A stretch of 64,000 nt of DNA from Microbispora sp. H13382 (GTDB lineage Bacteria > Actinomycetota > Actinomycetes > Streptosporangiales > Streptosporangiaceae), in the NCBI RefSeq assembly GCF_014161445.1, contig NZ_JABBXA010000003.1, forward strand, positions 124,001-188,000. Reading direction: 5' to 3'. This document shows, piece by piece, positions 5,259 through 6,802 of this stretch (the stretch's first letter is position 1; the number at the start of each line of letters is the position of its first letter). The notes under the pieces were generated by a model. That model saw nothing but the letters and a program-made list of their open reading frames with translations. It was not told the origin of the DNA and searched no databases. A program made the translations under genes and the position numbers.

Positions 5259-6170
5259 GTGCGTCCTGTCCACGAAACCGGAACCGGCGCCGGCGTCGGA
5301 ACCGGAGTCGCGGCGTACGACGCCGTGATCCTGGCGGGGGGCCGGGCCGAGCGCCTCGGCGGGGCGGACAAGCCGGGCGCGCTCGTCGGCGGACTGCCCC
5401 TGGTCGAGCGCGTGGCGGCGGCGGTCCGCGACGCCCGCACCGTGGTCGTGGTGGGCCCGCTGAGGGACATGCCGGGCGTGCTTTTCACCCGTGAGGACCC
5501 GCCGGGCGGCGGGCCCGTTCCGGCGCTGCGTGCCGGGCTCGCCGAGGTGACCTCCCCGCTGGTCGTCCTGCTCGCCGCCGACCTGCCGTTCGTCGTCGCC
5601 GGTCACGTCGGGGCACTCCTGGCGGCCGTGCCCGAGGGCGGCGCGGGCGCGGTGCTCGTGGACGACGAGGGCCGTGAGCAGTGGCTCACCGGAGCGTGGC
5701 GGACGGCGACGCTGCGGGCGGCGCTCGGCGCGTACCCGGGGCGGTCGCTGCGCGGGCTGCTCGGCCCGCTGGCGCCGGCGCCCGTGCGCCCGCCGGTGGC
5801 GCCGGGCGAGATCCCGCCGTGGTTCGATTGCGACACCGTCGACGATCTCCGCGCGGCCCGCGAACGGGCCGTGGGACGTGGGGTGAAGGGAGTGCGCGTG
5901 AACGTGCTGGAGGAATGGGCGGCGCTGGTCTGCCGCGAGCTGGGCATCGACCCCGCCAGGGTGGACCGGACCGCGGTGCTCGACCTGACGAGGGATGTGG
6001 CGCACGGCGTGGCGCGGCCGGCCGCCCCGTTGACCGCCTACCTGCTGGGGCTGGCGCAGGGGGCCGGCACCGCGCCGCCGGACGCGATGGAGCGGCTGTC
6101 CCGGATGGCGAAGGACTGGGCGCGGGCGACCGCGGAGGCGCCCGCCACTCCTGACACTCGTGACTCCTGA
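5259..6170 (+). CDS. mobA: MobA-type molybdenum cofactor guanylyltransferase with C-terminal DUF6457
   Basis: Protein of about 303 residues. The N-terminal 200 residues are a nucleotidyltransferase of the MobA type, with ILAGGRAERLGGADKP as the signature loop that binds the nucleoside triphosphate. MobA attaches GMP to molybdopterin to give the bis-MGD cofactor of enzymes such as nitrate reductase. From about residue 210 a helical segment starting VNVLEEWAALVCRELG matches the small actinobacterial DUF6457 domain, whose role is unknown. The start is uncertain: GTG at 5259 was chosen because the conserved core begins some 20 residues later. A GTG within the junction could in principle start DUF6457 alone, but no stop separates the two. 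It follows moaA closely. Confidence 0.88.
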   Translation: MRPVHETGTGAGVGTGVAAYDAVILAGGRAERLGGADKPGALVGGLPLVERVAAAVRDARTVVVVGPLRDMPGVLFTREDPPGGGPVPALRAGLAEVTSPLVVLLAADLPFVVAGHVGALLAAVPEGGAGAVLVDDEGREQWLTGAWRTATLRAALGAYPGRSLRGLLGPLAPAPVRPPVAPGEIPPWFDCDTVDDLRAARERAVGRGVKGVRVNVLEEWAALVCRELGIDPARVDRTAVLDLTRDVAHGVARPAAPLTAYLLGLAQGAGTAPPDAMERLSRMAKDWARATAEAPATPDTRDS

Positions 6171-6319
6171 CAGCCCCGGTTCCTGACACCTGCTGCCACG
6201 GCCCCGGCGCGCCGCGGGAGGGGGAAGGGCGGGCGCCGGGGGCCGTTCGGCGGAAGGGCCGTCTCCTAGGGGGGGACGACCGCGACGGCCGGTCCGTGAG
6301 GTCCGTGTAAAGATGTCAG

Positions 6320-6434
6320 AAAAGGGCGACGCCGGGTGGTTACGGGGGCAAACCACCCGGCGCCGCTTCATCGGCGTTCCGACGGGGGCCCGGAACGCCG
6401 GCACCAGCGCTCCGACGGGGGACCAGAGCGCTTG
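6320..6434 (-). ncRNA. probable small RNA with three C-rich hairpin loops (6C-like)
   Basis: Three adjacent perfect hairpins lie at 6406-6432 (7-bp stem), 6372-6400 (9-bp stem) and 6330-6362 (12-bp stem). Read on the minus strand, all three loops contain CCCCCGT. The last and strongest stem is followed by UUUU (6320-6323) after six bases, as in an intrinsic terminator. A promoter can be placed just upstream on the same strand: TTGACG at 6466-6471 and TACAGT at 6440-6445, 20 bases apart. The layout resembles the actinobacterial 6C RNA family, which has two hairpins with loops of six or more C, but here there are three loops of five C. Such loops could pair with G-rich ribosome-binding sites. 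Family membership is inference. Confidence 0.6.
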
Positions 6435-6478
6435 GCTAAACTGTACACCTCCAACCCATGGGTTGCGTCAAGACTTTG

Positions 6479-6802
6479 TCACGACCCGATCTCGCGTCGA
6501 TGGCGTGGTATCTCGTTTTGGTCAGGTGACGTAAAGCCCGGGGGCGGAGGAGGCTCATGACCTCTTTGGTTAGCCCCGATTACGGCAAGGTATGGCAAAA
6601 GAACGGCCCCCGCGACGAACAGGGCCTTGACGGGCCAGGGGGCCGGTACCGCCACCGCCAGGATCAGGCAGACGAGCCGGATGCCCATCTTGATGAGGTA
6701 ACTGATCTCCCGCTTGCGCACGTCGTCGGTCAGCGACGGCTGGGCGTCCGTCACCTGGTGAACGACCGGGCGGTCTTTTCTCAACCAGCGCCATGGATTC
6801 AC
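6479..6802 (-). CDS. DUF3099 family membrane protein
   Basis: Small protein of about 107 residues from the actinobacterial DUF3099 family. The segment VHQVTDAQPSLTDDVRKREI is the family's conserved N-terminal stretch. It is followed by two hydrophobic helices (about residues 38-55 and 60-78) and a hydrophilic, proline-rich tail. Its function is unknown, but it is almost certainly an inner-membrane protein. GTG at 6802 was chosen because the conserved region starts soon after; the ribosome-binding site is weak and in-frame GTG codons lie just upstream. The gene sits between moaA/mobA and tldD/fabG. The small-RNA promoter described at 6440-6471 lies immediately past its stop. Confidence 0.8.
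   Translation of the reverse strand: MNPWRWLRKDRPVVHQVTDAQPSLTDDVRKREISYLIKMGIRLVCLILAVAVPAPWPVKALFVAGAVLLPYLAVIGANQRGHEPPPPPGFTSPDQNEIPRHRREIGS

Follow-up and report, generated by a model that had tools for sequence, protein, structure and literature searches.

A conserved RNA element with repeated CCCCCGU-loop hairpins beside DUF3099 genes of actinomycetes, and its relation to 6C RNA

Introduction

To our knowledge, conservation across a large part of a class is uncommon among actinobacterial RNAs, and 6C RNA is the usual example. In other bacterial RNAs, such as the sponge RNAs of the CsrB/RsmZ type, GGA loops are carried on many hairpins. 6C RNA consists of two hairpins, the loops of which each hold at least six C residues (PMC8388888), and it is reported to bind mRNAs through these C-rich loops (Mai et al., 2019, as cited in PMC8388888). 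Two sets of expressed Streptomyces sRNAs, scr5583/sar2652/svr5279 and scr1434/sar6912/svr1031, also have predicted C-rich loops (PMC3765725).

The element described here lies in a 64,000-nucleotide stretch of Microbispora sp. H13382 (contig NZ_JABBXA010000003.1, positions 124,001 to 188,000; hereafter the window). It occupies ≈115 nt of the minus strand (6320-6434) and is supported by its fold, by covariation among 26 distinct homologues, and by the matches of a model, R1. Like 6C (RF01066), it is an actinobacterial series of tandem GC-rich hairpins with C-rich loops and U residues after the last hairpin, and its working mode is probably the same. By contrast, 6C is a two-hairpin RNA with at least six C residues per loop, whereas the RNAs related to the present element have one to three hairpins with CCCCCGU, on different stems and at a different locus. 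The Streptomyces C-loop sRNAs resemble the element in being actinomycete RNAs with predicted C-rich loops, but by position they differ: they take their names from SCO5583 and SCO1434 as flanking genes, and the present family adjoins DUF3099 and moaA (SCO1821). RNAs of the CsrB/RsmZ type likewise repeat one loop motif on differing stems, but they have many more hairpins and no sequence in common with the element. Among Rfam matches below threshold, the best for the window RNA was Scr3202 (RF02833; 25.7 bits, E 0.12). However, the gathering score of that family (52 bits) is far higher, similar scores were obtained at other places and in unrelated genomes, and nothing in 21 genomes exceeded the cut-off; membership in Scr3202 was therefore rejected.

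Results and discussion

Three different stems present the same loop

CCCCCGT occurs on the minus strand at 6342-6348, 6382-6388, and 6415-6421, and all three copies are in stem loops of the minimum-energy fold. Hairpin 1 (6406-6432) has 9 pairs and the loop GUCCCCCGU (6415-6423), hairpin 2 (6372-6400) has 10 pairs and the loop GGCCCCCGU (6382-6390), and hairpin 3 (6326-6366) has 16 pairs and the loop UGCCCCCGU (6342-6350). Hairpin 3 doubles as the predicted terminator stem and is followed on the minus strand by CCCUUUU, whose terminator-like UUUU tail is at 6320-6323. The stem sequences differ among the hairpins, each 9-nt loop ends in CCCCCGU, and the loop shared by the hairpin modules is NNCCCCCGU.

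The first-pass annotation of this DNA had noted that three different stems share a CCCCCGT loop core, which chance would hardly explain, and the folds of 9, 10, and 16 pairs and 100 dinucleotide shuffles bear this out. CCCCCGT is under-represented in the whole window (14 occurrences on both strands compared to 29.6 expected), and only the three hairpin copies lie in loops closed by stems of 7 or more pairs. The shuffles contained a mean of 0.31 such loops (largest number, 2), and none of the 100 had three CCCCCGT copies within 90 nt. A chance origin of the three loops is excluded.

Relative to shuffled sequences, folding of the element was more stable on the minus strand (z = -4.9) than on the plus strand (z = -1.0). 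An RNA from the plus strand was rejected, because its fold is no better than that of shuffles and 51 G-U cells of the homologue alignment described below would become A-C mismatches. Two short plus-strand ORFs (6313-6534 and 6336-6560) overlap the element, but a coding origin was also rejected, because the changes follow an RNA-stem pattern.

The element is conserved and covaries within the order

BLASTN with a 141-nt query detected the element in 39 of 60 relatives; additional matches (L045-L048) were fragments without CCCCCGU hairpins and were discarded. In alignment A1, which comprises 26 distinct sequences and a structure of 35 pairs, 99.9% of the 909 stem cells pair, and compensatory changes occur in 15 of the 35 pairs (4, 5, and 6 in helices 1, 2, and 3, respectively). 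No shuffle attained these pairing and covariation values, and sliding the structure along the alignment reduced pairing to 36-53%. Of the combinations in the stem cells, 51 are G-U and none is A-C, which implies that the minus strand is the RNA strand. CCCCCGU is kept in loops 1, 2, and 3 of 24, 24, and 26 of the 26 sequences, respectively. Compensatory stem changes and loop conservation in relatives, the lack of which would have spoken against the earlier annotation, are both present, and homologues of the spacer downstream of DUF3099 show covarying stems around loops that stay CCCCCGU.

Model R1 found one copy in 244 of 250 genomes, representing 53 of the 57 genera of the order. R1 matches were absent from G038-G040 (f3), G024, G245, and G261, where loss and an assembly gap are both possible. 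As judged from these alignments, the three hairpins are a real and strongly conserved RNA element, with a predicted promoter of its own.

A conserved predicted promoter precedes hairpin 1

The promoter-like boxes and the terminal hairpin with UUUU that had been noted earlier on the minus strand are all present, as TTGACG, TACAGT, and CCCUUUU. The -10 box TACAGT (TANNNT; 6440-6445) and the -35 box TTGACG (6466-6471) are separated by exactly 20 nt, and TTGACN-N20-TANNNT (TCTTGACN-N20-TANNNT) is found upstream of the RNA in 36/36 aligned loci; the TCTTGAC core is invariant in the alignment. The position of these conserved boxes places the predicted RNA start at hairpin 1. A generic promoter scanner misses them, because its spacer limit is 16-18 nt. 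Column identity averages 93% within the RNA, 81% over the -35 to -10 stretch, and 43% beyond the RNA 3' end. The U tail extends to UUUUUUU in some relatives and is missing from others. The element therefore has, by prediction, its own promoter and terminator, the latter as a hairpin with a U-tract in the window and in many, not all, relatives.

The spacer, which is longer than usual, suggests that an activator may take part. This spacer (6446-6465) contains the palindrome CAACCCATGGGTTG in the genus of the window, not in distant relatives. On the minus strand, the DNA at 6472-6530, comprising the last DUF3099 codons together with the DNA that precedes the -35 box (CGAGATACC...CGCGAGATCGGGTCGTGAC), is very conserved in the genus of the window and in close genera, and may hold an activator site.

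The RNA persists without either of its usual neighbours

Immediately upstream of the RNA, on the same strand, is a DUF3099 gene (PF11298, Pfam E 1.3e-22; 6479-6802, minus strand, stop codon 6479-6481), which is the same neighbour across families. At nearly all loci with DUF3099 in this place, a CCCCCGU hairpin lies 29-215 nt 3' of the DUF3099 stop codon on the same strand, where the 5' hairpin was the one measured in two loci. The usual order is DUF3099, RNA, and a small gene encoding a Cys/His-rich protein (CSAKGC...WNNPK...ERRK...C..H), which is found directly 3' of the RNA in most lineages (L043 1109-1375, L127, L188, L191, and many other loci) and which matched no Pfam or NCBIfam family.

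This arrangement raises the alternative that the RNA is a cis element, either a leader or attenuator of the small gene or the 3' end and terminator of DUF3099. Consistent with this alternative, the RNA sits between the two genes in many lineages: among 210 loci, a total in which some genomes enter twice, 128 have DUF3099 upstream and 114 have the small gene downstream. In many lineages a distance of 38-200 nt separates the RNA from the small gene downstream, where a cis role is possible, and in Micromonosporaceae the hairpin follows a -10 box, with the start of the small gene 17-66 nt further on. However, the conserved promoter lies beyond the DUF3099 stop codon, and a plain terminator would need neither an invariant loop nor three copies of it. 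The RNA is also kept where DUF3099 is gone, which is so at 16 of the 90 loci from the order, a total in which some genomes enter twice. Genes for dodecin, a TldE-type protein, and MobA are still present at the examined loci of this kind; in the window, the dodecin gene (PF07311; 6888-7100) is divergent from DUF3099. Likewise, the small gene is missing at 73 of the 90 loci of the order and was not found genome-wide in three genomes of the window's genus, in a search that was positive in four control genomes; the next gene beyond the RNA in the window is convergent. Persistence without DUF3099 or without the usual downstream gene implies that the RNA is not simply a 3' UTR or a leader, and because both neighbours are dispensable, it behaves as an independent gene. 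We consider a purely cis-acting element improbable.

Related RNAs with one to three modules occur across the class

Outside the order, weak R1 matches were mostly two-hairpin RNAs with the same loops, adjoining DUF3099 and moaA. Alignment A2 of 23 such sequences across orders contains 23 pairs, 16 of which show compensatory change, a number that no shuffle reached. A two-hairpin model, R2, matched 139 of 395 genomes of the class, in 50 genera and about 16 families, with one copy each and with the weakest families near 40 bits, and these orthologues keep the same place 3' of DUF3099. A DNA pattern for the terminal hairpin identified as carriers Streptomyces, Nocardioides, Actinopolymorpha, Jiangella, one Sporichthyaceae genome, and many Micromonosporaceae, which have a single CCCCCGU hairpin immediately after a TANNNT box. 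No R2 match was seen outside the class; the multi-genome searches used strict filters, which makes such absences soft. At two loci (L116 and L131), CCCCCGU is present only in the 3' hairpin and the 5' hairpin has a different loop.

None of the tested loci reached an Rfam cut-off, the sole exception being a true 6C locus included for comparison. Among the papers searched, DUF3099 was found in none, CCCCCGU only in an unrelated microRNA paper, and none of relevance mentioned scr1816-scr1821; a transcript from this position may already stand in Streptomyces RNA-seq tables without recognition as a family. From these comparisons we conclude that the CCCCCGU-loop RNAs are a widespread predicted RNA family of actinomycetes that is unlisted in Rfam and separate from 6C. 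The most far-reaching reading, to which we assign a probability of about 60%, is that this family is ancient and single-copy, with one CCCCCGU hairpin in Micromonosporaceae, two in most orders including Streptomyces, and three in the order of the window, and that it constitutes, next to 6C, another class-wide regulatory system based on C-rich loops, with a partner of its own. If so, it would provide a second RNA conserved over much of the class, with an invariant loop, a fixed genome place, and a naturally graded number of modules from one to three. It would also be a clean system for testing C-rich-loop regulation in GC-rich bacteria, including Streptomyces, with its easy genetics.

The element is distinct from the 6C RNA of the same genome

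The element had initially been described as 6C-like and as either a variant or a separate family. Its separation from 6C stands, whereas three loops proved to be the form of one order only, with two in most relatives and one in Micromonosporaceae. Membership in 6C was not borne out: RF01066 gave no match in 6150-6600 even at E 10, and no match in the whole window at its gathering score (47 bits). Instead, a true 6C RNA of the same genome was found on another contig (G000:C12:736283-736359, L054; 61.4 bits), with two hairpins, seven-C loops, and other stems, and relatives also carry 6C. Coexistence of both RNAs in one genome refutes orthology.

That the element is the genome's 6C RNA in a three-loop form would account for the common layout of C-rich loop hairpins with U residues after the last, and R2 does give one 6C locus 28.6 bits. 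This was the best score among 12 fetched 6C-hit loci, 10 of which had no R2 match at the 6C position. Moreover, 6C is defined by two stem-loops with six or more C residues, and the element has three stem-loops with five C residues followed by GU in each. Together with the RF01066 results, these differences leave identity with 6C scarcely credible; an old common origin of the CCCCCGU-loop RNA and 6C is possible.

Possible modes of action of the loops

We infer that the element is a separately expressed RNA that acts in trans with RNA as its partner. A free-standing sRNA gene would be transcribed from the TTGACN-N20-TANNNT promoter right after DUF3099 and would end at hairpin 3. Each hairpin would be a repeated module that presents the same 9-nt loop on a strong stem, and since the loops are constant while the stems change and the number of modules varies from 1 to 3, each loop is likely to be a binding site. 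The loops would pair in trans with single-stranded ACGGGGG or GGGGG near ribosome-binding sites, and several loops would confer avidity or allow several targets. Such G-rich sites, which the earlier annotation had also proposed, are the best guess, because the C-rich loops of 6C are reported to bind mRNAs. By this analogy, we give about even odds to a 6C-like mode of action, in which a multivalent small RNA would pair with G-rich sites through its loops.

An invariant loop also fits a protein site. In this alternative, a serious rival though a less likely one, the CCCCCGU loops would be sites for an RNA-binding protein that is sequestered or delivered, as by the repeated GGA loops of CsrB. Identical 9-nt loops on unrelated stems in 1 to 3 repeats are typical of protein-site arrays, and the G and U that follow the five C residues are conserved equally with them. 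However, the one-hairpin forms would be poor sponges, and C-richness and loop length suit base pairing equally.

Candidate sites for pairing of the loops with mRNA were counted in 864 kb with 541 predicted genes, whose starts were guessed by a simple rule that weakens the test. ACGGGGG is present in 5 of these 541 start regions, at 3.0 per 10 kb compared to 0.5 in gene bodies, and ranks in the middle among its own letter permutations in start regions (others up to 21), as expected where start regions are G-rich. GGGGG occurs at 26 per 10 kb in the start regions of the 541 genes compared to 11 in gene bodies.
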